Shown here one piece after another: positions 5,921-62,421 of a DNA stretch of 64,000 nucleotides. Source of the stretch: Bacteroidaceae bacterium. Lineage in GTDB: Bacteria; Bacteroidota; Bacteroidia; Bacteroidales; Bacteroidaceae. Numbering within the stretch: position 1 is the stretch's first letter; the number at the start of each line of letters is the position of its first letter. Location of the stretch: NCBI GenBank assembly GCA_017466325.1, contig JAFTUK010000001.1, forward strand, positions 1 through 64,000, given 5' to 3'. The position numbers and the translations under genes were made by a program. The notes under the pieces are model-generated. The model worked only from the letters and a program-made list of their open reading frames with translations, ran no database searches and was not told the origin of the DNA.

Positions 5921-6197
5921 CTACTCTGCTTCTGCCCTTGTTTAATCACAATTATAGTTTTGCGTTTTCCGCTTCATCAGACCCCCTCCCCTTCGGGACT
6001 CCCCCTGTCTCAGGGGGAGAAAGTGGGTAATAACGACCCTCTTTGTCCCTATGAGTTAGAGAGACAGAAGAGCGAAGTGACGGGGGGGGATGTTAGTTTT
6101 CCGTTTTAATCCCGCTTCGCGGTCTTTTCCTCCTTGTTGCTCGGCATAATCAAAATAAGTTTTGCTTCTGCTCTCGCTTCCTGCGTCGGTTCCGTTT
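5921..6197. repeat. Gene-free stretch with two dispersed repeat families
   Basis: No gene is supported. At about 5978-6025 is a C-rich/G-rich inverted block (ccccttcgggactcccc ... cagggggagaaag) also seen near 41832-41877. At 6100-6197 lies the block shared with 3930-4040, ending at the rsmF stop codon. Confidence 0.55.
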
Positions 6198-48635: not shown

Positions 48636-49577
48636 TTATGCCTCAGGTTCTATTACCGGGATTTCAGGTTCGTCCCAGGCCGTAGTCTCCACGGTTATGG
48701 TAAAGTCCTGCAAAGGATCTATAGTAATATTGTAGGTGGTTTTCTTGCCCATCTCCCAGTTTATAGAGAAGTTCTCCTTGACCAGTTCGACGGGTTCTCC
48801 GTTTACGTCCATCGTAAAGTGCAGTATGGCATTGGCAGATTGTTGCGGAATGACAAACAGATAGTCGGATGTCATCACCTGTTCTGCGGTGAATGCTTCG
48901 CCGGTAAACTGGGTAATGGAATTGCTCTGCCCGAAACCTCCCGGACTGCCGGGAGTGATGGTATTGTCTGCATTCAATGCAAACGAATTGGATGTATAGA
49001 CATTGTCAAAGTCTATGTCCGTCACCCTATAGGTATTGACATAGTTGAAACCGGGTTTCAGTCTGAAGGTAAAATTGACTGCTCCCAGTGCATGGTTGAA
49101 GACAGGCACCACTGTCTTTCCTATGTCCGCCTTTGGAACACCGATGTAGGCCATCATCAGATCCACCTGATGTGCCTTGCTGTCAAAGGCAAGTGACGTC
49201 AGCATATTGCCGCTGACTGTGGGAGTGCCCACACCGCTTGGCGAAAAGGCACTGAAGGCATAGTTATCCGCAGTCATCACCCAGTATTTGGGCGGAGTAT
49301 ATTCCCAGATGCCTGTCGGATTTGCAGTACTGCGGTTCACCACTTGGCTTGTAAACACTGCCTGTTCTCCATTGTAGTTGCCCCATACCGTAAAGGTATT
49401 GAAGTCGGCAATATCTTCCGCACCGTCAACAATTGAAGCACGCGACTGCAGTTCCCGTACCTGTGTGGCAAAAGAAAGCGGCCGTTGCGATGGCAGTTCG
49501 TTTTCGTTCTCACAACTCATCAGACTGCTTGTGAGGGCGAAAAGGAAACAAGGCAAAAAACGGGCAATGCGGTTCAT
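48636..49577 (-). CDS. Fimbrillin family protein (locus 2, minor)
   Basis: This 313-aa lipoprotein (lipobox SLMSC) matches the Mfa-like/fimbrillin fold, with FTVWGNYNG and FNHALGAVNFTFRLKPG as family-typical segments. Processing motif S-R-A is at residues 45-47, and the C-terminal strand ends WDEPEIPVIEPEA. It follows the major fimbrillin after a 77-bp gap with a strong hairpin. Confidence 0.82.
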   Translation of the reverse strand: MNRIARFLPCFLFALTSSLMSCENENELPSQRPLSFATQVRELQSRASIVDGAEDIADFNTFTVWGNYNGEQAVFTSQVVNRSTANPTGIWEYTPPKYWVMTADNYAFSAFSPSGVGTPTVSGNMLTSLAFDSKAHQVDLMMAYIGVPKADIGKTVVPVFNHALGAVNFTFRLKPGFNYVNTYRVTDIDFDNVYTSNSFALNADNTITPGSPGGFGQSNSITQFTGEAFTAEQVMTSDYLFVIPQQSANAILHFTMDVNGEPVELVKENFSINWEMGKKTTYNITIDPLQDFTITVETTAWDEPEIPVIEPEA

Positions 49578-49654: not shown

Positions 49655-50659
49655 TTATTCTATGGTCACGCCAGTATTTTCTGTAGACCAGTCTACAACG
49701 GCAGGATCGAAGGTAATCTCGTTGGTCTCAACACCGATGGTAATATTGTACACAATCTTCTTGTTGATGCCCCAACCTTCATGGCCAGAAACAATCCCTA
49801 ACAAATCCTTGTTCACAGTAATTACCTCACCCTCGATACCGTTATACTTCAACTTATAACTGATTTTTATCTTCTGACTGCCAGCCTCAAATTCCTGGGG
49901 CATCAGATAGCAGTTTGTCAAAGTTGCAGGTGTAAGGTCGGTAATAAATCCACTGGGAGCACCAATATTGATAGTCTCTGTATTGCTGCCAGTTGTCCAG
50001 TAGGTAGGCCAATTCCAAGGCTTCATGTTTTCTGCAAGGGGATCTATGTCCGACAATGTGATACTACCCTGATTACGGATATTGCTCAACTGCATGCCAG
50101 TAACTTGTACAGAATAACCGGCTGTCTTGGCTGCCTCAGTCAGACCAATGTTAAAGCTGATGTTTGAAAGCATGTGACGGAACAAGGTGGGCACACCAGT
50201 GTAATTAGTACCGCCGGTTGACACATTGTCAACGTTGCCGTTCAGTCCTGTAGCATAATCTGCCAACATCAGGTCCTTGCTTCCATCTACCTGATAGTCA
50301 GTCACAGATACATCACCAGTGCTTGCATTAATAGTGAATGGGCAGATATCACTGTAAGGAGCATAGGAAATGAAACTTACTGTACCAGTAGCAGGCCAGT
50401 AGTATGTTCCTGAAGCAGCCTTCCACACGCCAGCGCTCAGGGAAATCTTGGTGTTCTCCATTTCCTTACCAGCTCCCAGACCTGCCGAATAGGTACCGAA
50501 AGACTCTGTTTCGGGGAATTCAGCCCCGGTAGCACGTGTAGAACTCAGATACTTTGCAACCTGGAAGTCGATTTCCTGTGGGGGAACCAGACTCTCATTG
50601 TTGGTACAACTGGCAAATGCTACACCCGCCAAGATTGTAAAAAACAAACCCTTTTTCAT
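49655..50659 (-). CDS. Fimbrillin, probable major shaft subunit of locus 2
   Basis: This 334-aa lipoprotein precursor (lipobox AFASC) has the T-R-A processing motif at 41-43 and fimbrillin-like two-domain organisation (LFRHMLSNISFNIGL). It is the first fimbrillin after DUF5119, and a hairpin follows its stop, which fits the most expressed subunit. Confidence 0.82.
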   Translation of the reverse strand: MKKGLFFTILAGVAFASCTNNESLVPPQEIDFQVAKYLSSTRATGAEFPETESFGTYSAGLGAGKEMENTKISLSAGVWKAASGTYYWPATGTVSFISYAPYSDICPFTINASTGDVSVTDYQVDGSKDLMLADYATGLNGNVDNVSTGGTNYTGVPTLFRHMLSNISFNIGLTEAAKTAGYSVQVTGMQLSNIRNQGSITLSDIDPLAENMKPWNWPTYWTTGSNTETINIGAPSGFITDLTPATLTNCYLMPQEFEAGSQKIKISYKLKYNGIEGEVITVNKDLLGIVSGHEGWGINKKIVYNITIGVETNEITFDPAVVDWSTENTGVTIE

Positions 50660-50709: not shown

Positions 50710-51720
50710 CTAAATCTCCACATCATTCTGCTCTTCGTCCCAGTCATTCACCTCGGGCTTGAAACCACCGTTTCCGCCCGGCGGAGTGATTGGGTCCGGA
50801 ATATCCAGCGTATCGTTTATCAGCAGCCAATGTCTCTCTTTGGCATCCTCTGTACGGAACACCTCATCTAGGTTGAAAGTCTGCTGGTATTTCTGTCCGT
50901 CTCTGGTAAGTACGTCGAATGTCACATCCAGATTGCTGGTTTCCCCTTCTATCTTTCCGAAAGTACTGAACAGCGTGCAAAGCACCTTCTTTCCATTGTC
51001 CTCGCTTGGCATCAGGTCGAAATATACTGCTGTGGCAGATTCCCTGTCGCGCATGTTCGGTCCCATGAGGTTGCTGGCCGACAGACCAGTCAGGATAGCA
51101 GATGCGCTTGCAGCATTCTGTCCTCCCTCCACATATATTTGCAGATAGTAGGTATCCACTATCGTTTCCGCTTCTGTTTCAATCATAACAAGCGAATTGC
51201 TTGGCGCTATACATAAGTTCTCTTCCCTGGCGACAAACAGATGGTTGGGTTCGTAACGTATCTCCTCGAAAGAGCCTCTGGTCTCCTCGAATCTGGATGC
51301 CAGATGGTCACTCACACGTGGTGTAAATGCCATTATGCCATCATAACTGCCCTCTCCCGATATCTGTGTCGTTTCCGTATCAAAGTTATAGCACAGCATC
51401 TTGTATTCTCCGGGCAGCACCTTTATATATCCCGACACATAAGGTTCGCCATCCTCCGTCACGCCTGTTCCGGAAATGAAACTCTGGTTCAGGAGCCTGT
51501 CTCCATCGGGAGTATAGAGCAGGGCACGCACCATACCAGACGAAATATCAGGCACGGGGATCTTGTCGTTGTAGATGTTGGCAGTCACGTTGTTTATCCC
51601 CTTCACCTTCATGACTACCTTCAGGAAGACATGATCCTCCATCTCCTCCAACGGTCTGCGCACGCATGCCGACAAGAGGACGGCCAGCACCATGAAGCCA
51701 CATATCCTTACGAACCTCAT
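50710..51720 (-). CDS. DUF5119 domain lipoprotein of pilus locus 2
   Basis: This 336-aa lipoprotein (lipobox VLLSAC) matches DUF5119, found next to DUF3575 proteins in fimbrial loci. Its ATG overlaps the upstream stop by 4 nt. It may be a pilus tip, anchor or chaperone component; function is unknown. Confidence 0.82.
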   Translation of the reverse strand: MRFVRICGFMVLAVLLSACVRRPLEEMEDHVFLKVVMKVKGINNVTANIYNDKIPVPDISSGMVRALLYTPDGDRLLNQSFISGTGVTEDGEPYVSGYIKVLPGEYKMLCYNFDTETTQISGEGSYDGIMAFTPRVSDHLASRFEETRGSFEEIRYEPNHLFVAREENLCIAPSNSLVMIETEAETIVDTYYLQIYVEGGQNAASASAILTGLSASNLMGPNMRDRESATAVYFDLMPSEDNGKKVLCTLFSTFGKIEGETSNLDVTFDVLTRDGQKYQQTFNLDEVFRTEDAKERHWLLINDTLDIPDPITPPGGNGGFKPEVNDWDEEQNDVEI

Positions 51721-52949
51721 CGGCCACCTCCTTTCCTCTTGAACTTCAATTCTATGGGCATAACCAAAGATACCTTCAGTTTCGTGGGTCCGAAATATCC
51801 GTACCGTCCAAACTTGTACTTGTCTCTGATCAACATGTCGTAATCATCTGTCGGCATATAGTGCTGATAGTGAGTAGAGAGGTAACCGAGGGAAGCGGAA
51901 AACTCCAGGTTGAACAGGCGGCATATTCTGAAAGCATAACCTACGGAAACACCAGTAGACCAGAACTCGCCCTGATAGTTGAATTTGCGGTCGTTCTGCA
52001 GGTCATACATGCCAGACATCAGATACACGCCTCCGAACAATCCCGTCAAGTGCTTCCTGTCATCGGTGCGGTATGGCCAATAGCGTCCTTCCACACCCAT
52101 TTCCCATATCTGGAAACAATACTTGTTGCCTGTCTCCCACCAGGGGAAGACATCCTCCACCGCAATGGACCACCGCTTTCCTATAGGTATTTCCAGTTCA
52201 GCATTCAAGGCCGTCACTGCGTCATAGAGCAAGTTGGTCTTCAATGCAAACGGAAACATTCTGGTATGGTACGATACCGTATCCACCGGCATAGGCATCA
52301 GTTCCGGTTCCGGCATCACTATGGCGGCAGTATCTATTTCCGGCATGGTATCCTGTTCAAACTCTGGAATGGGGATGTACACACAGAGCCACGTGGCCAC
52401 ACGCAAAGCCGGCATATGGTGTTTTATTATCCAACTGTATGTGTAACCGTTATCCAGACGCTTCAGTCGCCACTTCTTGGTCTCCGTGGGAACATTGGCA
52501 CGCATTATCCTCATCACTCGGTCCCTGTTCATCAGGTGATAGTTGGCATCCAGTTCCTCATACAGGCCCTCCCAGTTCTCACCCATGGGATGCAGGATGA
52601 TGTTCTCCGGCAAGAGGACGCTATCGTTCGGAAGGTTCGCCAAGATAAACTCGCGGGCCACCTCGGCACGTTTCCTTGCCAACCACTCATTGCGACGGGG
52701 CGCACCTTCAGGAGAGGCATAGGCATAGATGGCAATGCTGTCTATGCGGGGCGAACGAGCAAGGATGTCCCTGATACGCATCATCTGCAGGGCATTGTCC
52801 AGATAATCCTCCTGCAGATCCGTTCTGTCACAAAAATAATACAGAGAATAACGGTCACTATTTATGCTGTCTGTCTCTCCATAAGCAGCGGAGGGATAGA
52901 ATAGCGCACACAACGCAAACAAAAATACAAAATAGATCTTTCTCAGCAT
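51717..52949 (-). CDS. OmpA-like/DUF3575 outer-membrane protein of pilus locus 2
   Basis: This 410-aa protein has a signal peptide, an N-terminal OmpA-like domain (IDSIAIYAYASPEGAPRRNEWLARKRAEVAREFI) and a C-terminal DUF3575 beta-barrel (from about ALKTNLLYDAVTALNAELEIPIG). The domain order is the reverse of classical OmpA. It shares very similar blocks with the locus 1 homologue at 59927-61213, e.g. the RDRVM...NVPTETKKWRLKRLDNG segment. The start at 52949 is preferred because the upstream ATG leaves only 3 nt to the purine-rich AAGGGA. Confidence 0.82.
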   Translation of the reverse strand: MLRKIYFVFLFALCALFYPSAAYGETDSINSDRYSLYYFCDRTDLQEDYLDNALQMMRIRDILARSPRIDSIAIYAYASPEGAPRRNEWLARKRAEVAREFILANLPNDSVLLPENIILHPMGENWEGLYEELDANYHLMNRDRVMRIMRANVPTETKKWRLKRLDNGYTYSWIIKHHMPALRVATWLCVYIPIPEFEQDTMPEIDTAAIVMPEPELMPMPVDTVSYHTRMFPFALKTNLLYDAVTALNAELEIPIGKRWSIAVEDVFPWWETGNKYCFQIWEMGVEGRYWPYRTDDRKHLTGLFGGVYLMSGMYDLQNDRKFNYQGEFWSTGVSVGYAFRICRLFNLEFSASLGYLSTHYQHYMPTDDYDMLIRDKYKFGRYGYFGPTKLKVSLVMPIELKFKRKGGGR

Positions 52950-53008
52950 AGTTTGCATGATTCCCTTGCACCTTCCACAACACAAGAAAAACGACCATAT
53001 TCTGCATG

Positions 53009-53133
53009 CAAATATACACAAATTAAACAGCAGACCACCTAATTAATAGTAACTACCCCCCTTATTAACATTTATTAACACCACAGTGGGTTCACGCCCT
53101 CCTTTTGCACTCATTTAAGGTGGAATTGTGCAA
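53009..53133 (-). promoter_or_regulatory. Promoter/operator region of pilus locus 2
   Basis: On the minus strand TATATTTG (53009-53016) is the -7 box and no good -33 box exists. Upstream lie a run of six C on the plus strand (53056-53061), the 16-mer ATTAACATTTATTAAC (53064-53079; GTTAA direct repeat, 10-bp period) and AATTGTGCAA (53124-53133). All three recur at almost the same spacing before locus 1. This points to an activator-dependent promoter. Confidence 0.65.
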
Positions 53134-53189
53134 CTTTTCAGTACTCACAAAACAGGAAGACAATTTTTCCTAAAACATCCACACCATCA

Positions 53190-53243
53190 CACAAAATAAC
53201 AAAACTGCCATACACAATGCACATGGCGCATTATGTATGGCAG
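53190..53243 (-). terminator. Intrinsic terminator after pilus locus 1
   Basis: On the minus strand CTGCCATAC and GTATGGCAG (plus 53205-53243) close a hairpin followed by ttttgttattttg. It lies 20 bp after the stop of the tip gene. Confidence 0.75.
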
Positions 53244-53263
53244 CAAGATATTGGAACTTTGTT

Positions 53264-55711
53264 TTACTCTTCTGTTGTTATTTCCTCCCACTCGGTGTAA
53301 CCGATATTTCGCTTCCATTTATTTCTAACAGCTCGCACACGGTTGATTTCATCACGCTGACGATTACCTGAATCACGAGAAGAAGGCGCAACCTCTGCAC
53401 TAAAACGACCTGTCTGATTGATAACAGAACCATTCCATGTCTTACTTATACCTTGAACCTCACTTGGTTCATAAGAGTAGTTGCCCGCATTATAGGTTGT
53501 CTTTGTAGCGCGTGCCCATTCCTTATCTTCATAGAAGAAGTCGCCTTCAACAGAACCAAATAAACCTAAGGCAACGTCATATTTGAAATGCCCCCTCCTA
53601 TAAGAAGTCTGTGATGACCAATATCTGTTATCCTGAAAAACTTCGAACTTAGAATATGCAGAAGACATGATATGCTGCAATTCACCGATAGCTGGAAGAT
53701 ACCACTGGACGGCAGGAACCGTTCCATCAGCGTTTCTCTTATTCTTGTTATGGCAGTGTTGTGCCGCACTTTGCGGCATGGCATCCTGTGTGAGGACACC
53801 CTGATCCATCACATTTATCAGTTTAGTGGTATACTTTCTTCCCCAGAAATTATTTTGGAAGTCATAATAACCACCTGCTTTTTTAATTGCATCTTCTATA
53901 TACTTCAAATTGTTTGCCCACCAACTTTGTACATCTTGAATAGCCATAATCTCATAAGAAATCGTATTCTTTGGTCCCCAAGGCATACCCGCTACGGTCG
54001 AATTGAAATCATCATCGGGATTATAGTTATACAGATACTCCTCAAAGAACTCGATATCATATCTATACTCTATTCCTGCTTCCTCGTCTTGATAAATCAC
54101 AGGATAGAGGTCGTGCTGAGAAAAAGTATAGTGTTTTGTCGTCTTCAAGACATTATTCTCATAATACTCCAGCACCAGCACTATTTCGCGAGTACCATTT
54201 GTTGACACATTGGTATTCTCATCAAAATAAAGCCATAGATTATTCGTTTCTGATGTCAGTTCTGCTTCTACCTTATTTTTGAGTTCCGAGAGCAAACTCG
54301 TAGTGAAATATTTGCGACGCCCACGATTTTTGCTATCATAAGGGCAGTACGCAGATGTGTTCATTGCAGAATTGACAACCTCCATACGCGCCCAGGTCAT
54401 CTCATTATTCTCTATTGCCTTGGATGGATCTGAAGGATTAGCCAAATAAACCTTTATCTTCTGGTCTACCCCATCACCAGCATCCAGTATCTGAATCTGA
54501 AGGGGACGTACTTCGATATGAGAGTCAAGCATGGTTTCACGTTCCATGTGCACCATAAAATGATTCGCATCCACATTCACCCTATGGTCAATGGAGACAG
54601 AACCATCTTCACCAGACTGCGAATTGGTAATACCGCGGATAACGATGGAGTTGTTGTACTGCCCGTTGCGTTCCACCTGGAAGTTCTGCCAGTTGTCCGA
54701 ACCCAGATATACCTTATAACTTACGACATACTGATGATTCTGGTGGTCAGTGAAGACACCATTTATCACAACGTATGTGGGTTCGCCATCATAGCCTGCA
54801 GGAATTGCCGGATTGCATTCCTTGTCCACCAAACATGGTTTGAAGCGTTGCTTCTCGTTGTCGGAAATTCCAGCTGGGTATGAATAGTCAGATGCCTCCA
54901 CGGCAGGATTCACTTTGTGCTCCGGCATATAGAAGCTGAAACTCAAACTATTAGAACCCGTCACAGGGTTTGCGCCGGTGAAACGTCGTGAAGACACAGG
55001 ATCATCAAATGTATCGTTATAAAACGAAGTCTGTCCGTCATTCTGTGTTCCCACCAGTCCAAAACCCTTGGGCAGATTATGCACCTCCCAGTTTGTCATC
55101 TGAAACGAAGGGGAGAAGTAATCCTGAATCGTTTCCAGTCTGATATTGAATACGATTTTGGCAAACAGATTCTCGAGGGGAATCTCAATCTTGCTGTCTG
55201 GAATATTATTATAATCAGGATTCAGGTCCACATTCTTCATGCTGCCCATCATAGGGAAGCCATCTGCAGGAATGTTCAGGGATGCCACATCATATTCATG
55301 CTTTACCGCCATCAGGTCGGAAACAGTCTGCACGTTCCATCTTTTAATCTCTTCCTGAGAGACGTTTGCAATCATGTACACGTCGGCTTGATTTATACCA
55401 TTGTCAGTACTAGAATTCAGTGTACCGCGGTCCACTACAAACAAAGGCACTGAACTTTCAATGCTTTGCTTGCTTATTAGTATGTCGGCATTGTCATAAA
55501 TCAACAATGTCATGTATTTTATGGCAGACTCTTCTGGAGTTTTGGCAGCACGGGTTGTCACATCATAGTCGGCAAATCCAGGGACTCTGCCAACGAACTG
55601 CACACATGACCTGCTACCGTTCTGCGGCACCAGTTCTTCCTCGGCACACGATGAAAGCAGCATCGTTGCCAAAGTCATGATAGGAAATAAGAATCTATAT
55701 TTCATTCTCAT
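53264..55711 (-). CDS. Large fimbrial tip-like lipoprotein (DUF4906-type) of pilus locus 1
   Basis: This 815-aa lipoprotein (lipobox LLSSC) matches the DUF4906-type distal proteins of Bacteroidetes pilus loci. The T-R-A processing site is at Arg54. The C-terminal 200 residues (from AVQWYLPAIGELQHIMSSAYSKF, with NRYWSSQTS) resemble a C-type lectin/FGE-like fold (DUF1566/Fib_succ_major-like), a plausible ligand-binding head. An in-frame TTG exists at 55723, but ATG at 55711 fits better. It ends locus 1 before a terminator. Confidence 0.8.
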   Translation of the reverse strand: MRMKYRFLFPIMTLATMLLSSCAEEELVPQNGSRSCVQFVGRVPGFADYDVTTRAAKTPEESAIKYMTLLIYDNADILISKQSIESSVPLFVVDRGTLNSSTDNGINQADVYMIANVSQEEIKRWNVQTVSDLMAVKHEYDVASLNIPADGFPMMGSMKNVDLNPDYNNIPDSKIEIPLENLFAKIVFNIRLETIQDYFSPSFQMTNWEVHNLPKGFGLVGTQNDGQTSFYNDTFDDPVSSRRFTGANPVTGSNSLSFSFYMPEHKVNPAVEASDYSYPAGISDNEKQRFKPCLVDKECNPAIPAGYDGEPTYVVINGVFTDHQNHQYVVSYKVYLGSDNWQNFQVERNGQYNNSIVIRGITNSQSGEDGSVSIDHRVNVDANHFMVHMERETMLDSHIEVRPLQIQILDAGDGVDQKIKVYLANPSDPSKAIENNEMTWARMEVVNSAMNTSAYCPYDSKNRGRRKYFTTSLLSELKNKVEAELTSETNNLWLYFDENTNVSTNGTREIVLVLEYYENNVLKTTKHYTFSQHDLYPVIYQDEEAGIEYRYDIEFFEEYLYNYNPDDDFNSTVAGMPWGPKNTISYEIMAIQDVQSWWANNLKYIEDAIKKAGGYYDFQNNFWGRKYTTKLINVMDQGVLTQDAMPQSAAQHCHNKNKRNADGTVPAVQWYLPAIGELQHIMSSAYSKFEVFQDNRYWSSQTSYRRGHFKYDVALGLFGSVEGDFFYEDKEWARATKTTYNAGNYSYEPSEVQGISKTWNGSVINQTGRFSAEVAPSSRDSGNRQRDEINRVRAVRNKWKRNIGYTEWEEITTEE

Positions 55712-55723
55712 CTTCAAAGACAA

Positions 55724-56812
55724 TTATTCAAATTCTATATCCACGTTGTTATCTGTCCACTCGCTTGGAGGTATTATCTGGACAGAGACGGCATCTCTTG
55801 TAAATACCAATTGAATCACGTGCTTTCTGCCTGCCACCAAGTCTCCATCGAAAACAATATCGTATGAATGTGGACCGGTCTTCACCCCGGGATCGGTCAG
55901 AGTGATGGCGTCACCGTTACCGTCCACATAGGCCAAGTTAAATGTCACACTACCCCTGAGCGACTGGGTCGTACCATCCACCTCCTGTGGTATAAGAATC
56001 AGAGGCGACCCTGAGCTTAGCATATTTATCGTTCCCGACGCTACGTCCGAAGGGACTACAGTAAGCGGGGTGGCCATGGAATAACTTGCCTCCTTGTTTA
56101 CTGCCTCCGTCCTGTCCATACCCATGCTCTCGTCCATCCAAACCTTGGCCTTATTGTACTTCAGGTTGGTGAAGTTCAGTTTCAGGTCCGTAAGTTTCAC
56201 ATGCACATCCTTGTCTCCGAACTTAGCATTCAGATTTATCATCTGCACATCCACGGCTGCCAATCGGTGCTTGAAGGTCAGTGCCACCTCTCTGGACGAC
56301 CTGTAATCGGTGTTGTACACACTGGCCGTCATCACATCCTGCATCTTGGCAGGATCGGTTGGCAAAGTGTAGGTCAGGTAGGGAGTACCTTCCACATTGG
56401 CACCACTGACAGCAACAGAGCCGTCAGACTCCGATTCGTGTGGATAGTATCCGAAAAATGTGTACTTGCAGTTCACCTTCCATGGCACAAGTGGATCATC
56501 GTAGGAGTGCAGGCCGTCGGAGTATTTAACCATCGTTGCATAGAACTCGTTAGGTGTTGCCTGAACCTTCACCGTGTTCCACACGTCGTTGGCATCGTTG
56601 TATTCCCAACTGTAGCCCATCACGCCAAAGTTTCTCTTCATGTCCTCCACAAGGCCGGCACGGGTTGGAGCCTGGGTGTCAAAATGTATATAGCCATAGA
56701 GAGGCAGCTGGACCTCGTTTTCAATGTCATCCAGAGTGTTCGAGTCGCATCCGCACAATGCAGACAATGCCAGAACAAAAATGGGCAAACAATATTTCTT
56801 CAGCATTTTCAC
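55724..56812 (-). CDS. Fimbrillin family protein (locus 1, third)
   Basis: This 362-aa lipoprotein (lipobox ALCGC) has the T-R-A site at residues 50-52 and a fimbrillin-type fold (ALTFKHRLAAVDVQMINL). It begins 1 bp after the stop of the preceding fimbrillin and ends 12 bp before the tip gene. Confidence 0.8.
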   Translation of the reverse strand: MKMLKKYCLPIFVLALSALCGCDSNTLDDIENEVQLPLYGYIHFDTQAPTRAGLVEDMKRNFGVMGYSWEYNDANDVWNTVKVQATPNEFYATMVKYSDGLHSYDDPLVPWKVNCKYTFFGYYPHESESDGSVAVSGANVEGTPYLTYTLPTDPAKMQDVMTASVYNTDYRSSREVALTFKHRLAAVDVQMINLNAKFGDKDVHVKLTDLKLNFTNLKYNKAKVWMDESMGMDRTEAVNKEASYSMATPLTVVPSDVASGTINMLSSGSPLILIPQEVDGTTQSLRGSVTFNLAYVDGNGDAITLTDPGVKTGPHSYDIVFDGDLVAGRKHVIQLVFTRDAVSVQIIPPSEWTDNNVDIEFE

Positions 56813-56813
56813 G

Positions 56814-57770
56814 TTACTTGATTATAATGGTACCGCCTACCTGTGCCGAACCCCATTCCTCTACGGTTGGAGTAGCAAAGATAATGTCCTTCTGGGCATG
56901 TATGATGGCCTTGTATGTAATCTTCGTGTTCACGTCCCAAACCGGATTCTCCGGAAGCAGGGTGTACAGGATATTGTTCTCGATGGTCTCGCCTCCGGAA
57001 ATTGCATAGTCGTAAACTATCAGCAATACCACAGGATGGTTCTCGGGATGCACGGGTTGTGGCATCAGCAGCATATCGGTGAGGAAATCCTTGTACGTTC
57101 CTGTTTCTAGGCTCTCGCTGAACACCTGTCCCATGTTGGTTGGTGTCTGGCCTTCTGTTAAATTCCAGGTAGCGGTAATGTTGTCCCCCTCCTTCGTCCA
57201 CACATAGTCACCCTGTGTGGAGAGGCCCAACAGATAAACCTGTTTCACCTTAATATCGTCGGTGGCATTTTCTGCATGTTTCGTCAGCTGTACGGACACG
57301 TTGGTCAATGTATGTTTGAAGGATAGATTCACAAACGGAGCGGTACTTCCGTCCAGATCCTGTTCTGTGGCGTGCAGTAGGTCTATCTCCGAATTGGCGT
57401 CAAATCCTTTTATCTCCAGTTTAAGGTTGTTGTTTGTGGTAGCACAAGTGGTGTATGCCTCTGCATCTTTGTCAGGGTAAATGCCATGGAAGTTATATGT
57501 GTTGAAAGTCCAGACCTCGGGGTCGGGGTATCCCCACTGTCCGCCGGCGTATGTCACCTTTCTTCCATTGAAAAGGTATTCGTTTCCTGAAAATCCGCCC
57601 CACACAGAAAAACCGTTGGCCTCCACGTCCGACTTTCCGGCCACGGCACGTGTATTCTCCATCTTGGCACTAAAGCCAATGGTCTTCTGCCCATTTGGGC
57701 TTTCCCCTATGTCATTGCTGCATGCCATAGACAAGCATATCAAAGGCAGTATCTTCAGTAGATTCTTCAT
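56814..57770 (-). CDS. Fimbrillin family protein (locus 1, second)
   Basis: This 318-aa lipoprotein (lipobox LSMAC) has T-R-A at residues 40-42, FSVWGGFSGNEYLFNG and FKHTLTNVSVQLTKHA as fimbrillin marks. It is separated from the major fimbrillin by 120 bp holding a strong hairpin. Confidence 0.82.
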   Translation of the reverse strand: MKNLLKILPLICLSMACSNDIGESPNGQKTIGFSAKMENTRAVAGKSDVEANGFSVWGGFSGNEYLFNGRKVTYAGGQWGYPDPEVWTFNTYNFHGIYPDKDAEAYTTCATTNNNLKLEIKGFDANSEIDLLHATEQDLDGSTAPFVNLSFKHTLTNVSVQLTKHAENATDDIKVKQVYLLGLSTQGDYVWTKEGDNITATWNLTEGQTPTNMGQVFSESLETGTYKDFLTDMLLMPQPVHPENHPVVLLIVYDYAISGGETIENNILYTLLPENPVWDVNTKITYKAIIHAQKDIIFATPTVEEWGSAQVGGTIIIK

Positions 57771-57836
57771 TAGTATGTGTTATATATATATAATATGGTG
57801 TGATGGTGATGTGATGGCGGTCTTCTTTTGTAGAAT

Positions 57837-57867
57837 ATATCTTGGGTGGCCAAGCCACCCAAGATAT
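57837..57867 (-). terminator. Hairpin between the first and second fimbrillin genes of locus 1
   Basis: Bases 57837-57850 pair perfectly with 57854-57867 (14 bp, 3-nt loop). It lies 23 bp past the stop of the first fimbrillin, in the same place as the hairpin of locus 2. No T-run follows on the minus strand. Confidence 0.6.
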
Positions 57868-57890
57868 GATAATTTAAAATGAACTGCAAA

Positions 57891-58805
57891 TTAAAGAGTC
57901 ATTCCAGGAGTTGCAGATGTCCATTCATCTACCTGTACTACACTAAATGTAATGTTCTTTGTTGCAGGAGAAACTGAAGCTGTGTAAACATAGCTATAAC
58001 CAGGCAACCACAAGCCACTAGTCAAAGCAAGAGAAACATTAGTATATGGCTTCTCGTAAACCTTTTCGTCAGCATCGTTATAGAACGTAACAGTGAAGGA
58101 AGCCTTAACTTCGGTCAAAGCCTGATTAGGAATCACCAAATGTTCCTCGGAAGAGAAAGTAGCAGACTTTGCAGCATTACCACCTGCGAAAGACAAAGCA
58201 GAAGCTGTGCCCTCTGGTGTCCATGTAGCAGCTGCAGCATTGGTAAATACACAATCACCCTGCTTCAAAACATTAAATGTGAGGTCAGAAACAGTCAACT
58301 TATAATCAGAAGAACTATTTGTTATAGCAAAACTAACCTTTGACAGCAGGTGCTTGAATGTAAGACCAACTGTCGCATTTCCCATGGTTGTATTATTCAC
58401 AGATGCTGTGGCTGCGACCAAATCGCTTGCATCATTGGCTACAATATCGCTAAAGGTCAATGCGCCATCTGCATATGCAGGAGTAATCTGATCTGAGGTG
58501 TTTGTGGTAGCATAGGCTGCAAAATAGTAATTGCTTGCAGTCCAGGGCACATTAGTTGCACATTTCCAAGCGGTTCCATCTTTTGTTACTGCAACATTGT
58601 TGAAATCCACTGTTGTACCATGGTTACCGAACACATAGAACTTCTGCAAATCATCTGTGTTAGTTGATGTTACACTACGTGTACCCTTGTTCACAAACGA
58701 ATCAAAAGTGATGTTTGTGTTCTTGTTAATGTCCAACACTTCGTCGTTGGAACAGCTTGTGAAGGCAGCTACTGCCAAACCAAGCACCAATAAACTCTTT
58801 TTCAT
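57891..58805 (-). CDS. Fimbrillin, probable major shaft subunit of locus 1
   Basis: This 304-aa lipoprotein precursor (lipobox FTSC) has T-R-S at residues 42-44 and GLTFKHLLSKVSFAITNSS as the fimbrillin core. Its composition is rich in Thr, Ala, Ser and Asn, unlike the other fimbrillins, as expected for an abundant shaft subunit. It directly follows the DUF5119 gene. Confidence 0.83.
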   Translation of the reverse strand: MKKSLLVLGLAVAAFTSCSNDEVLDINKNTNITFDSFVNKGTRSVTSTNTDDLQKFYVFGNHGTTVDFNNVAVTKDGTAWKCATNVPWTASNYYFAAYATTNTSDQITPAYADGALTFSDIVANDASDLVAATASVNNTTMGNATVGLTFKHLLSKVSFAITNSSSDYKLTVSDLTFNVLKQGDCVFTNAAAATWTPEGTASALSFAGGNAAKSATFSSEEHLVIPNQALTEVKASFTVTFYNDADEKVYEKPYTNVSLALTSGLWLPGYSYVYTASVSPATKNITFSVVQVDEWTSATPGMTL

Positions 58806-58889
58806 ACTCTTAAGTTTTTTAAAAGGTTTGTAAAATAAATAGATTAATTATTATTGTTTTTATCTCTTTCAGGGATTGTAAATTTGCAA

Positions 58890-59930
58890 TTATATGGGCA
58901 ACGGCACGTTGACTTCATCTCCCCATCCGTCTACACCTACCTGGAAACCGCCGCCAGAGTCATCGCGGTCTTCGTCGATTTCAATTCCCGATACAACAAT
59001 GACACCACCATGGGGCTGGCGCAACACCTGGTCGGTGATGTCGAAGTCGTGCTGCTGGAAGTTGCCGTTCTTCAGGCGCAGTTCCACGGCCAGGCCGAAC
59101 TGGCGGTTGGCGGCACGGGTATAGTTGATATTGGGATAGTCGGGGACGCCGAAGGACCTTACCTGTGCCTGAACGCCGAAACTGCCCACGGTGTTGCAGT
59201 CGAAGAGTACCGTGACCTCGTCCTTGGCAGTGCGTCCGGTGCTGAGGTTCACGCCCTGTGCCATACCTGCCAGGGCTCCCTTGGCCTGCACCACATGCTC
59301 GGCACCCTTCACCACCTCAAACCTTATCAGATAGGTGAACACCAGGGGGTGCATGGTTATGTCCATGGTGTCGGTTTGGAAGGACTTTACCACCAGTACG
59401 GAATCGCGGTAGGCACCATAGAGCATGTCGGGGGGATTGACGGTAACCTCCTTGGTGGCACGTGTCATGAGCGAGTTGCCACGGTAACTGTTGCGCACCA
59501 GGCCACGGGTGGTGGCTGAGGCTGTGGTATAGTCGCCCATGTTCTCGAACACGATGTATTCGGTGTCGTTGTTGTAGAAGAGGAAGTCGTAGTAGCCATT
59601 GTTGGCAAGGCGCACCGTGGACTTGTCCTTGGTCATGTTGCGGATGGTTTCCATATTGCCGTGTCCGTAGTAGGCATGCAGGCGGACGCCCTCGGCCTCG
59701 GCAGGACGGAGTTCGTCGTAGGAGACCACATACTTGCTGTCCCAGTTGTTCTGCCAGTCCATGTAGCCCTCCACGTTCTCTTCCCAGGCGCGGTCGAAGG
59801 CGAGGTTGAACTTATATTCGGCACGTGGCGTGTGTGCGTCGTGGTCGTAGCACAGGTCCTTGTGCTCGCAGGAGGTCAGGAGCGCTCCCGTGGCCATGGC
59901 CAGGAGAAGGAGCAGACGGTTCATCTTCAT
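58890..59930 (-). CDS. DUF5119 domain lipoprotein of pilus locus 1
   Basis: This 346-aa lipoprotein (lipobox LLTSC) is the counterpart of the DUF5119 protein at 50710-51720, with a conserved RGLVRNSYRGNSLM...DMLYGAYRDSV block. Its ATG overlaps the stop of the DUF3575 gene by 4 nt, as in locus 2. Confidence 0.82.
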   Translation of the reverse strand: MKMNRLLLLLAMATGALLTSCEHKDLCYDHDAHTPRAEYKFNLAFDRAWEENVEGYMDWQNNWDSKYVVSYDELRPAEAEGVRLHAYYGHGNMETIRNMTKDKSTVRLANNGYYDFLFYNNDTEYIVFENMGDYTTASATTRGLVRNSYRGNSLMTRATKEVTVNPPDMLYGAYRDSVLVVKSFQTDTMDITMHPLVFTYLIRFEVVKGAEHVVQAKGALAGMAQGVNLSTGRTAKDEVTVLFDCNTVGSFGVQAQVRSFGVPDYPNINYTRAANRQFGLAVELRLKNGNFQQHDFDITDQVLRQPHGGVIVVSGIEIDEDRDDSGGGFQVGVDGWGDEVNVPLPI

Positions 59931-61213
59931 CTGTCACCTCCTTTCTTCTTGTTGACGGGCCCCAGCAGCCATACCAGTGTCACCTCGGCCTTGGTGGGAC
60001 CGAAGAAACTGCGCTTCTTGGTGGTATGCCACACATAGTGGTCGTCCATATACAGGTATTCGTTGTACAGACCGCCGTGATAGCCTACGCCAAGGACGAA
60101 GTCCAGACTGAGGCGCTTGGCAATGGGCATGGAATAGCCATACTCCAGGCCAACGGTATAGTTGGGGCGGTCGAAAAGTGTTTCACCGGGATGTCCGGAC
60201 ATGTAACCGCGCTGGCCTACCATGAAGTCGTAGGCGAGGACCTGTGCATACACTCCGACATGATGACCCGTGAGCGCCCTTTCCCTGGCGGCACTGCCCA
60301 ACCATTTGCGGACTGCCAGTTCGCCGCCGTAAGTGCGCCAGAACCAAGACTTGGTATTCCACCATGCATAGTGCCAGTTGGCGGCAATACTGAAGTTCTT
60401 GCCCAGATAGAATTCCAGTCCCACGTTGGGAACCAGGGCGGCATCGTAGAGCAGGTTGGTCTTCAGTGCCCAGACGGGTGCCTTGAAGGACCTGGTGCGG
60501 ACGGTGTCCCTGGTTTCGGGAACAATGGCAACAGGTGCCTCGGGTTCCTCGGGTGCAGGAAGCGTGTCCGCCGCAACGGGGACAGCTTCCATGTTTATGG
60601 TATATGTGGTGTCCTTGGAAAGTTCGGGTGTAGTCTGGAAGACGCAGATCCATGTGGCCTGTCGCAGGGCGGGCATGTGGTGCTGAATTATCCATCTGTA
60701 GGTGAAGCCGTTGTCCAGACGCTTCAACCGCCATTTCTTGGTTTCCGTGGGGACATTGGCGTTCATCACCTTCATCACACGGTCCCTGTTCATCAGGTGG
60801 TAGTTGGCATCCAGTTCCTTGTACAGTCCATCCCAGTTCTCGCCCATGGGGCACAGGCGGATGTTCTCGGCCCCGAGAACAGAACCGGAAGGGAGGTTGG
60901 ACAGAATGAAATCGCGTGCAGACTCGGCTCGCTTCTGTGCGAGCACGTCATTACGCCCCCGAGCACCTTCGGGAGAGGAATAACTGTAAATAGTAATGCT
61001 GTCTATGCGAGGCGACTGTGCCAGAATCTTACGGATTCGCGCAATCTGCCTGGCATTGTCGAGATAATCCTCCTGGACATCCGATCTGTCCCTATAATAA
61101 TACAGGAAATAACGATCGGAAAGCAGGGTATCCTGTGCCTCCTGTGCTATTGCCGGAGAGACCCCTCCCAATAACAGCATAGCCAGGAATATGGCAACAA
61201 ATCGCAATTTCAT
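59927..61213 (-). CDS. OmpA-like/DUF3575 outer-membrane protein of pilus locus 1
   Basis: This 428-aa protein begins with a signal peptide (MKLRFVAIFLAMLLLGG...AIAQ), then an OmpA-like N-terminal domain (SPRIDSITIYSYSSPEGARGRN) and a DUF3575 barrel (ALKTNLLYDAALVPNVGLEFYLG). It is the first gene of locus 1 and a close paralogue of 51717-52949. A purine-rich AGGAAG lies 6 nt before ATG 61213, a rare Shine-Dalgarno-like site here, which decides the start. Confidence 0.84.
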   Translation of the reverse strand: MKLRFVAIFLAMLLLGGVSPAIAQEAQDTLLSDRYFLYYYRDRSDVQEDYLDNARQIARIRKILAQSPRIDSITIYSYSSPEGARGRNDVLAQKRAESARDFILSNLPSGSVLGAENIRLCPMGENWDGLYKELDANYHLMNRDRVMKVMNANVPTETKKWRLKRLDNGFTYRWIIQHHMPALRQATWICVFQTTPELSKDTTYTINMEAVPVAADTLPAPEEPEAPVAIVPETRDTVRTRSFKAPVWALKTNLLYDAALVPNVGLEFYLGKNFSIAANWHYAWWNTKSWFWRTYGGELAVRKWLGSAARERALTGHHVGVYAQVLAYDFMVGQRGYMSGHPGETLFDRPNYTVGLEYGYSMPIAKRLSLDFVLGVGYHGGLYNEYLYMDDHYVWHTTKKRSFFGPTKAEVTLVWLLGPVNKKKGGDR

Positions 61214-61266
61214 CAAATCTTCCTTCTTTTTTACCTTAAACCTTCCCACAAGGGAATAAACGGCCG

Positions 61267-61393
61267 CAAAGTTACGAAGAAATTATTTGACCGCGATATA
61301 GGATGGACAGATTACCCCCCCCCATTAACATTATTTAACTTTTTTACTTAAACGGCAACAAGGATATAGCACTCTTTCTGCAAAATTGCGCAA
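61267..61393 (-). promoter_or_regulatory. Promoter/operator region of pilus locus 1
   Basis: On the minus strand TAACTTTG (61267-61274) is the -7 box. A run of nine C on the plus strand (61315-61323) touches the 16-mer ATTAACATTATTTAAC (61324-61339), and AATTGCGCAA lies at 61384-61393. The block order and spacing match locus 2. No -33 box is visible. Confidence 0.65.
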
Positions 61394-61461: not shown

Positions 61462-61568
61462 GTCCTCGGTGGCGGTGAAATGAGCCGCCCTCGGCGATAA
61501 AATTCACCGCCAGTGGCGATAAAGTTCAGCGCCAGTGGCGGCTCATTTTACCGCCACCGAGGGCTGGG
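61462..61568. repeat. CGCCAGTGGCG modular repeats, second array
   Basis: Imperfect modules with CGCCAGTGGCG-like cores, similar to 19258-19382, lie between the locus 1 promoter and the MITE-like repeats. Confidence 0.7.
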
Positions 61569-61584
61569 AACACCCCTCCTTGTG

Positions 61585-61710
61585 TCGCACGCAGATTACG
61601 CGAAGGGCGCAGAGGATTTTTGCGGAATATGAACCAGTGAAGAATCTCTGGAGAAAAGATAACCTCGGCGAAATCGGCGGGAAACAAAGAAATCTGCGTG
61701 AGATAAAAAC
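61585..61710. repeat. MITE-like element copy 1
   Basis: A 126-nt unit with perfect 10-bp terminal inverted repeats CACGCAGATT (61588-61597) and AATCTGCGTG (61691-61700). The interior (gaagaatctctggagaaaag) matches copies at 62180-62294 and 62309-62421. Confidence 0.7.
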
Positions 61711-61760
61711 AGCGGAGAGAGGAAAATATTAAATCGTGGTTATGCGTTATGTTTTTTTGC

Positions 61761-61768
61761 TATCTTTG
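61761..61768 (+). promoter_or_regulatory. -7 box for the GxxExxY gene
   Basis: TATCTTTG fits TAnnTTTG and lies 26 bp upstream of the ATG at 61795. Confidence 0.5.
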
Positions 61769-61794
61769 TGTACACAATAAATGCTTATACTATT

Positions 61795-62175
61795 ATGAGA
61801 AATTTGGATGAACTTTCGTATAGGGTTATTGGATGTGCTATGGAGGTTCACAATGTTCTTGGAGCGGGACTTTTGGAAAGCGTCTACGAACAAGCTCTTA
61901 TTCATGAGTTGACCACAAACGGTATACAGGTAAAAAACCAGGTTGATATAGATGTTTACTACAAGGGTAAGATTATTACCAATGGACTTAGGTTGGACCT
62001 GCTTGTTGAAGATTCACTGATAGTGGAATTAAAAACTGTAGAAGAACTTAAACCTATACATCACAAACAACTGCAGACGTATTTAAGAGTTATGGACAAG
62101 AGGGTGGGACTTCTAATCAACTTTAATACAGTAAATCTCAGAGACGGCATCAAGCGAATCGTGAACAAATACTGA
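61795..62175 (+). CDS. GxxExxY protein, PD-(D/E)XK nuclease superfamily
   Basis: This 126-aa protein has the GxxExxY signature GLLESVY (25-31) and a PD-(D/E)XK-like core: Asp68 in GLRLDLL, then VELK with Glu78 and Lys80, followed by HHKQLQTYL. By family these are small nuclease-fold proteins of unknown biological role. The gene is AT-rich compared with its neighbours and is surrounded by MITE-like repeats, which suggests transfer with them. The start at 61795 is the family start; 9 upstream codons overlap the promoter. Confidence 0.85.
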   Translation: MRNLDELSYRVIGCAMEVHNVLGAGLLESVYEQALIHELTTNGIQVKNQVDIDVYYKGKIITNGLRLDLLVEDSLIVELKTVEELKPIHHKQLQTYLRVMDKRVGLLINFNTVNLRDGIKRIVNKY

Positions 62176-62179
62176 TTTA

Positions 62180-62294
62180 TCGCACGCAGATTACGCAAAG
62201 GGCACAGAGGATTTTTGCGGAATACGTGTCAATGAAGAATCTCTGGAGAAAGATAACCTCGGCGAAATCGGCGAAATCGGCGTGAGATAAAAAC
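62180..62294. repeat. MITE-like element copy 2
   Basis: A 115-nt copy starting right after the GxxExxY stop; its left inverted repeat (cacgcagatt) is intact and the right is degenerate (aaatcggcgtg). Confidence 0.65.
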
Positions 62295-62308
62295 TGTGAT
62301 TTATTTGG

Positions 62309-62421
62309 CGCACGCAGATTACGCGAAGAGCGCAGAGGATTTTTGCGGAATACGTGTCAATGAAGAATCTCTGGAGAAAAGATAACCTCGGCGAAATCGG
62401 CGAAATCTGCGTGAAACAAAA
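62309..62421. repeat. MITE-like element copy 3
   Basis: A 113-nt copy in the same orientation as copy 2, with both inverted repeats intact (62311-62320 and 62404-62413). It ends 74 bp before the sialidase stop codon. Confidence 0.7.

Follow-up and report, generated by a model that had tools for sequence, protein, structure and literature searches.

A phased GTTAA operator beside poly-G tracts at Bacteroidales pilus promoters points to a possible slippage-driven rotational switch

In a 64,000-nucleotide stretch of DNA from a Bacteroidaceae bacterium (GCA_017466325.1, contig JAFTUK010000001.1, positions 1-64,000, in an assembly of 2.59 Mb that is 88% complete), which we call the window, two pilus operons are preceded by the same promoter module: a tandem GTTAA operator, a run of G residues beside it and a -7 box, TAnnTTTG. 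The operator recurs in related genomes at distances from the -7 box that differ by whole helical turns, and a subset of these promoters carries the G-tract within the phased spacer, mostly in front of pilus and other surface genes. We favour, with moderate confidence, the reading that slippage in the tract would make these promoters rotational switches.

Both window promoters are read from the minus strand. In that direction each runs from an upstream inverted repeat through 27 or 29 nt to GTTAA-N5-GTTAA, followed by 3 or 1 nt, a tract of G6 or G9, 39 or 40 nt starting with TA, the -7 box and a DUF3575 gene (Table 1; all -7 boxes in this work are consensus matches rather than mapped transcription starts). 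An earlier note, made from the sequence of the window alone, had described a TAnnTTTG box without a -33 box at both promoters, plus-strand C-runs of 6 and 9 at 39 and 40 nt from it, a 16-mer, ATTAACATTwwTTAAC, differing at two bases, the word AATTGyGCAA exactly 45 nt past the 16-mer end, and GCACTCwTT in between. Direct reading bore out each of these elements, with the boxes at 53009-53016 and 61267-61274, the 16-mers at 53064-53079 and 61324-61339, and AATTGyGCAA beginning at 53124 and 61384. The C-run adjoins the 16-mer, at 2 nt in operon 1 and 0 nt in operon 2, and operator and run thus stand side by side. Across the whole 2.59-Mb assembly the degenerate 16-mer has exact matches only at these two sites; among the near matches that were fetched, one lies within a ribosomal-protein-like gene and one right before a start codon. 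The window holds nine runs of at least six C or G, and the flanks read around the two other 8-base runs (at 6082 and 7238) contained no operator, which indicates that run length alone is not the signal.

The comparison genomes, one per species and many of them metagenome assemblies, included 139 of the same genus. A pattern of operator plus -7 box, permitting distances of 32-62 bp and requiring no G-run, matched 121 of the 139 genus genomes, against 5 matches for the reversed control. Among the matches listed, 120 of 125 tract-free sites fell into three clusters, at 36-41 bp (38 sites, mean 38.5), 47-52 bp (62 sites, mean 49.4) and 57-62 bp (20 sites, mean 59.75), with 5 elsewhere, and the distances were phased with R = 0.83 at a period of 10.75 bp. 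This set excludes eight rows that belong to a single repeated element in genome G069 (distances 43, 46 and 56 bp, out of phase) and three rows that are the second -7 box of an operator already counted, and in at least one of its members (G010:C111) a G5 run lies at a greater distance from the operator. Counting the G069 rows gives R = 0.73 and 115/133 sites in register, compared with 115/125 when they are omitted. The two window promoters, at 48 and 50 bp, lie near the 49.4-bp optimum.

A second family of 59 genomes, 53 of them matching, yielded 111 tract-free sites, among the matches listed, that were phased at 38, 49 and 58-59 bp; here two duplicate rows were taken out, one site whose G5 run is distant from the operator (G581:C35) was counted as tract-free, and a look-alike family of 11 members at 54-56 bp was treated separately. 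These eleven promoters (for example, G550:C15:38517-38594 and G582:C1:157715-157792) carry the operator, end close to TATAATTACTATATTTG and would be in phase only with a different -7 box.

Judged by this conservation, the double GTTAA is a real, conserved operator sequence. Positions whole turns apart are characteristic of an upstream activator that needs to face polymerase, and the genus-wide conservation together with the 10-11-bp phasing strongly supports the earlier suggestion that GTTAA at a 10-bp period marks an activator site in front of a promoter lacking a -33 box. The pattern resembles class I activation, in which E. coli CRP works at -61.5, -71.5 and -82.5, one turn apart, on a different operator.

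The tract-bearing module was sought with the pattern GTTAA-N5-GTTAA-N0-14-G5+-H-N22-52-TAnnTTTG, which found further members in both the genus and the order. In the genus there were 20 distinct sites in 16 of 139 genomes, with none in the reversed control, placing the shared footprint above chance; in a sample of 393 order genomes 4 matched, including the window's own, again with none in the control. A scan of named genomes gave at least 118 stretches, and among the matches listed 114 were from Bacteroidales, 1 from Marinilabiliales, 1 from Sphingobacteriales and 2 from outside Bacteroidota. The last two (L170, Acidimicrobiaceae, and L200, Geobacterales) are included in the 118 and were dropped as chance from the dereplicated and gene counts. 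Among the named isolates, Heminiphilus faecis AM35 (L150) carries G7 ahead of a pilus-leader gene. One locus (L134) has G/C runs of up to 34 at positions 78-148 and at its other end, an apparent sequencing or assembly artefact.

In 103 dereplicated tract promoters the tract ranged from 5 to 13 G, most often 8 (36 sites), and 79 sites had 7-9; the two window tracts have 6 and 9. Operator-to-box distances peaked at 35-37 bp (28 sites), 49-51 bp (26) and 56-60 bp (20). Shuffling the tract length, the operator-tract gap or the tract-box gap among the 103 sites reduced the clustering of distances in every case (each p = 0.0002, the smallest value possible with 5000 shuffles), and it follows that tract and flanks compensate for one another and that the tract counts towards a constrained total distance. 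Two tract promoters in one genome, for instance, divide into gap, tract and rest as 2/9/28 and 0/10/29, a total of 39 in each. The tract thus sits in a phased spacer, as would be expected of a slipped-strand promoter, and the conservation suggests that the spacing is sensitive. A single period for all tract sites was rejected: a Rayleigh scan of 82 sites gave a broad maximum at about 12.25 bp (R = 0.49), because distances in the 36-bp class fall 2-3 bp below those of the corresponding tract-free class.

The genes behind the two kinds of operator differ sharply. In the genus, a pilus-leader profile matched 13 of 19 genes at tract-bearing operators compared with 3 of 97 at tract-free ones (Fisher p = 2e-10), the 97 being open reading frames of at least 60 amino acids in the fetched loci and thus part of the listed sites. 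This profile drew on the tract-bearing set itself; a second, from homologues chosen by protein similarity regardless of promoter, which still includes both window proteins, gave the same 13/19 and 3/97. With the window's two genes left out, pilus leaders made up 11 of 17 tract-bearing genes (p = 6e-9), and over all tract-bearing sites the profile matched 33 of 116 genes. The concentration at pilus leaders is what would be expected of slipped-strand promoters at surface loci. Other tract-bearing promoters lead capsule, lipoprotein and outer-membrane genes, and ten other tract loci, hand-picked rather than random, had Pfam matches over cut-off to BspA-type leucine-rich repeats (2), outer-membrane beta-barrel, fasciclin, glycosyl transferase 4, bacterial sugar transferase, polysaccharide synthesis, NusG-like, Spi protease inhibitor and radical SAM families. 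Tract-free operators in the same genus (L222-L332) lead genes that, named by eye, include those for PadR-type regulators (10/97), IMP dehydrogenase (4/97), BlaI-like regulators (3/97), secreted proteins and orotate phosphoribosyltransferase. The tract goes with gene class, not with the operator. One of the three tract-free pilus leaders (L309) has an orthologous-looking promoter with an interrupted GGGAGGGG in place of G9. At another pilus-leader promoter with the same operator (L300, G042:C50:3694-3775), a TA/TTA-rich stretch occupies the position of the G-tract and is possibly slippage-prone too.

From the conserved operator, its phasing and the position of the tract, we infer a mechanism. 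Each promoter, lacking a -33 box, would depend on an activator bound to the tandem half-sites at their 10-bp period, and this activator, sited upstream at a distance of about 39, 49 or 60 bp from the -7 box, would have to share a helix face with RNA polymerase. In the subset with a G-tract, mostly of 7-9, in the phased spacer beside the operator, which mostly serves pilus, capsule and other surface or secreted genes where these can be named, slipped-strand mispairing would gain or lose single base pairs and thereby rotate the activator out of or into register. The result would be pilus transcription that is switched or graded between cells. We regard such a rotational switch at these promoters as the probable reading, by a modest degree. 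The second family is consistent with it: 9 of 25 tract-bearing sites, compared with 95 of 111 tract-free sites, were within 1.5 bp of register (p = 1.4e-6), as would be expected if many sequenced copies were caught in another length state. For two of the tract sites the nearer operator was used (26 bp), and for two others one of two -7 boxes was used (32 bp in G535, 54 bp in G549). Under the least favourable choices, in which only distances of 33-61 bp are kept (9/20) and the look-alike family is counted as out of phase (95/122), the difference persists (p = 0.005).

Several observations weigh against the switch. Tract-bearing sites of the genus are almost as well phased as tract-free ones (17/20 versus 115/125 within 1.5 bp), and their extra scatter is slight (mean deviation 0.98 versus 0.70 bp, p = 0.027, once four outlying tract-free sites are removed; keeping them, the tract-free value is 0.84). 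The lengths of the tracts cluster around 8, with 79/103 at 7-9, and five similar pilus promoters have tracts of 8, 8, 7, 8 and 8, a near-constancy that suggests stability. The base after the tract is T in 78 of 81 sites and the next is A or G in 79 of 81, mostly giving T(A/G)A, which a mere spacer does not predict; T follows only 6 of 20 other runs of at least seven G in the same DNA, six of the 20 belonging to one assembly artefact. Finally, the commonest tract class outside the genus forms a sharp peak at 36 bp, 2-3 bp under the tract-free optimum, rather than random scatter. The earlier proposal that C-run slippage may alter the distance between operator and promoter fits the placement of the run in a phased spacer, its concentration at pilus and surface genes, and the existence of functional analogues; the near-register of the genus sites and the centring of lengths on 8 count against it, and that these runs slip is presumed.

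The flanking bases and the length peak at 8 fit the leading alternative, in which the G-tract and its TAA flank are a recognition or structural element, either an extended operator or the site of a second protein, and species differences in length are tolerated drift. A tract of G7T before a -7 box was found in 48 of 139 genus genomes, and 14 of 30 fetched sites had no recognisable operator (at least three mismatches), which also counts in its favour, although the excess of this pattern over the reversed control is only about 2.5-fold (61 versus 24 rows); of the other fetched sites, 7 had the exact operator and 9 had it with one or two mismatches. However, most listed genus operators are tract-free, which implies that the activator does not need the tract, and the association of the tract with gene class, the interrupted tract at an orthologous-looking pilus promoter and the span of lengths from 5 to 13 all speak against a fixed recognition element. 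We consider this alternative rather unlikely, though it is the one most worth keeping in mind.

It is also conceivable that the tract acts as a promoter spacer that is neutral or under mild selection, and that the pilus genes belong to an ordinary activator regulon with no switching. The phasing of the genus tract sites would fit, as would the three pilus-leader promoters with an operator and no intact tract, one of them the interrupted-tract promoter. Against this stand the association with pilus genes, the length mode of 8 and the finding that 112 of 132 runs of at least seven G in 874 kb around the tract loci lie at the module, a proportion that, because the loci were chosen for having a tract, shows the rarity of such runs elsewhere rather than enrichment from nothing. 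On balance a neutral spacer appears improbable. That the GTTAA repeats are instead a Bacteroidales UP-like element contacted by the RNA polymerase alpha subunit, with no dedicated activator, is similarly improbable: the mixed genes behind tract-free operators (IMP dehydrogenase, orotate phosphoribosyltransferase, PadR-type regulators and secreted proteins) and the helical phasing would suit alpha-subunit contact too, but exact sites are few per genome and the operator lies about 50-85 bp upstream of the expected start, whereas UP-like elements usually sit closer.

Upstream of the operator, AATTGyGCAA and GCACTCwTT each contain one arm of an imperfect inverted repeat, which has the general form TGCrCA-N12-14-TGTGCA and with TGAGCA or GAGTGC as the second arm in some promoters. 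Of 33 tract-set pilus promoters it was present in 6, every one of them among the 13 that belong to the window's genus, and none of 97 non-pilus sites had it; shuffled sequences gave 0.015 on average. The gap between inverted repeat and operator was 27-29 nt in four promoters and 17 nt in two, about one helical turn apart. A second, pilus-specific factor may act at the repeat.

As for the activator, OmpR/PhoB-type regulators bind tandem operators such as the PhoP box, with two direct half-sites about 10-11 bp apart; the GTTAA operator likewise has two direct half-sites. Neither GTTAA-N5-GTTAA nor TTAA-N6-TTAA was found near the three OmpR-type (Trans_reg_C) genes of the genome, the only regulator class searched, and the keyword-matched passages of the RprY papers give no binding motif for that regulator. 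The PadR-type regulator encoded behind ten tract-free operators was considered as the activator and set aside, as its promoters seem to have their own palindrome and it looks like a target. A histidine kinase gene in one locus (L098) is preceded by GTTAA repeated three times at a 10-bp period (minus strand, about 1490-1552), a single site that is a possible lead to the regulator.

Both gene clusters behind the window promoters combine DUF3575, DUF5119 and Mfa_like_1 proteins with Pfam matches over cut-off, the composition of Bacteroidales type V (Mfa/FimA-like) pilus operons (Table 1). In operon 1 we take ATG 52958 as the likely start of the DUF3575 gene, because the longer mechanical open reading frame begins at a TTG (53021) upstream of the -7 box. 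The large DUF4906 protein that ends operon 2 is possibly a tip adhesin. Just upstream of operon 2, short CCGCCAGTGGCG-like repeats, inverted and direct, occupy 61470-61560, and three copies of an interspersed repeat (like CGCACGCAGATTACGCGAAG...GATTTTTGCGGAATA) lie at 61583-62420, around a small open reading frame (61768-62175) that is presumably of the GxxExxY type.

Table 1. Promoter elements and genes of the two pilus operons in the window
Feature	Operon	Positions	Strand	Remarks
-7 box TATATTTG	1	53009..53016	-	direct reading and pattern match
G6 tract (plus strand C6)	1	53056..53061	-	39 nt upstream of -7 box
Putative operator, tandem GTTAA half-sites (GTTAATAAATGTTAAT)	1	53064..53079	-	operator to -7 box 48 bp
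Upstream inverted repeat TGCACA-N14-GAGTGC	1	53107..53132	-	contains most of AATTGTGCAA and GCACTCATT
DUF3575, first gene	1	51717..52958	-	likely start ATG 52958
DUF5119 protein	1	50710..51720	-	
Mfa_like_1 fimbrillin	1	49655..50659	-	
Mfa_like_1 fimbrillin	1	48636..49577	-	
-7 box TAACTTTG	2	61267..61274	-	direct reading and pattern match
G9 tract (plus strand C9)	2	61315..61323	-	40 nt upstream of -7 box
Putative operator, tandem GTTAA half-sites (GTTAAATAATGTTAAT)	2	61324..61339	-	operator to -7 box 50 bp
Upstream inverted repeat TGCGCA-N12-GAGTGC	2	61369..61392	-	
DUF3575, first gene	2	59927..61213	-	OmpA match under cut-off; ATG 61213, alternative GTG 61249
DUF5119 protein	2	58890..59930	-	
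Mfa_like_1 fimbrillin	2	57891..58805	-	
Mfa_like_1 fimbrillin	2	56814..57770	-	
Mfa_like_1 fimbrillin	2	55724..56812	-	
Large DUF4906 protein, last gene	2	53264..55723	-	Lcl_C match under cut-off

In other bacteria a layout of this kind allows random on-off switching of such genes. The closest parallel is found in Bordetella pertussis, where fim2, fim3 and fimX have a poly-C tract between the BvgA activator sites and the -10 region and a change of a single base alters transcription (PMC1891110, PMC10172299). In both systems a fimbrial promoter has a C/G homopolymer separating its activator sites from its core. The two belong to different phyla and have unlike promoter consensus, operator and pilus type; variation of the tract and the effect of such variation have been demonstrated in Bordetella and are proposed here, and in Bacteroidales most tracts are 7-9 long and the same operator also serves many tract-free genes. 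The tpr promoters of Treponema pallidum likewise have G-tracts at surface-protein genes (7-11 at tprL), with activity that depends on length, but the tprL tract is four nucleotides from the transcription start and the passages seen of that paper mention no such phased tandem operator (PMC7864442). Within the same order, the passages seen of a study of Bacteroides describe invertible promoters that phase-vary surface loci, capsule and SusC/SusD among them, by DNA inversion rather than by tract slippage (PMC11868660). Among the open-licence papers listed in searches bearing on such tracts, no title or opening of an abstract described a homopolymer promoter switch in Bacteroidales.

In gut Bacteroidales, phase variation is known mainly as DNA inversion. 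On the sequence evidence, chances are about even that poly-G slippage phase variation extends across the order as a separate system, with one regulon split into stable tract-free promoters and tract-bearing contingency promoters, each of the latter acting as an independent rotational switch or rheostat. If so, homopolymer-based promoters at genes for pili, capsules and adhesins would be a second kind of switching in these bacteria, one that consensus assemblies would flatten and inversion finders would miss. Because the same operator occurs with and without the tract, the effects of spacing and rotation could be separated from the identity of the regulator, and because the operator defines a regulon, that regulator can now be sought.

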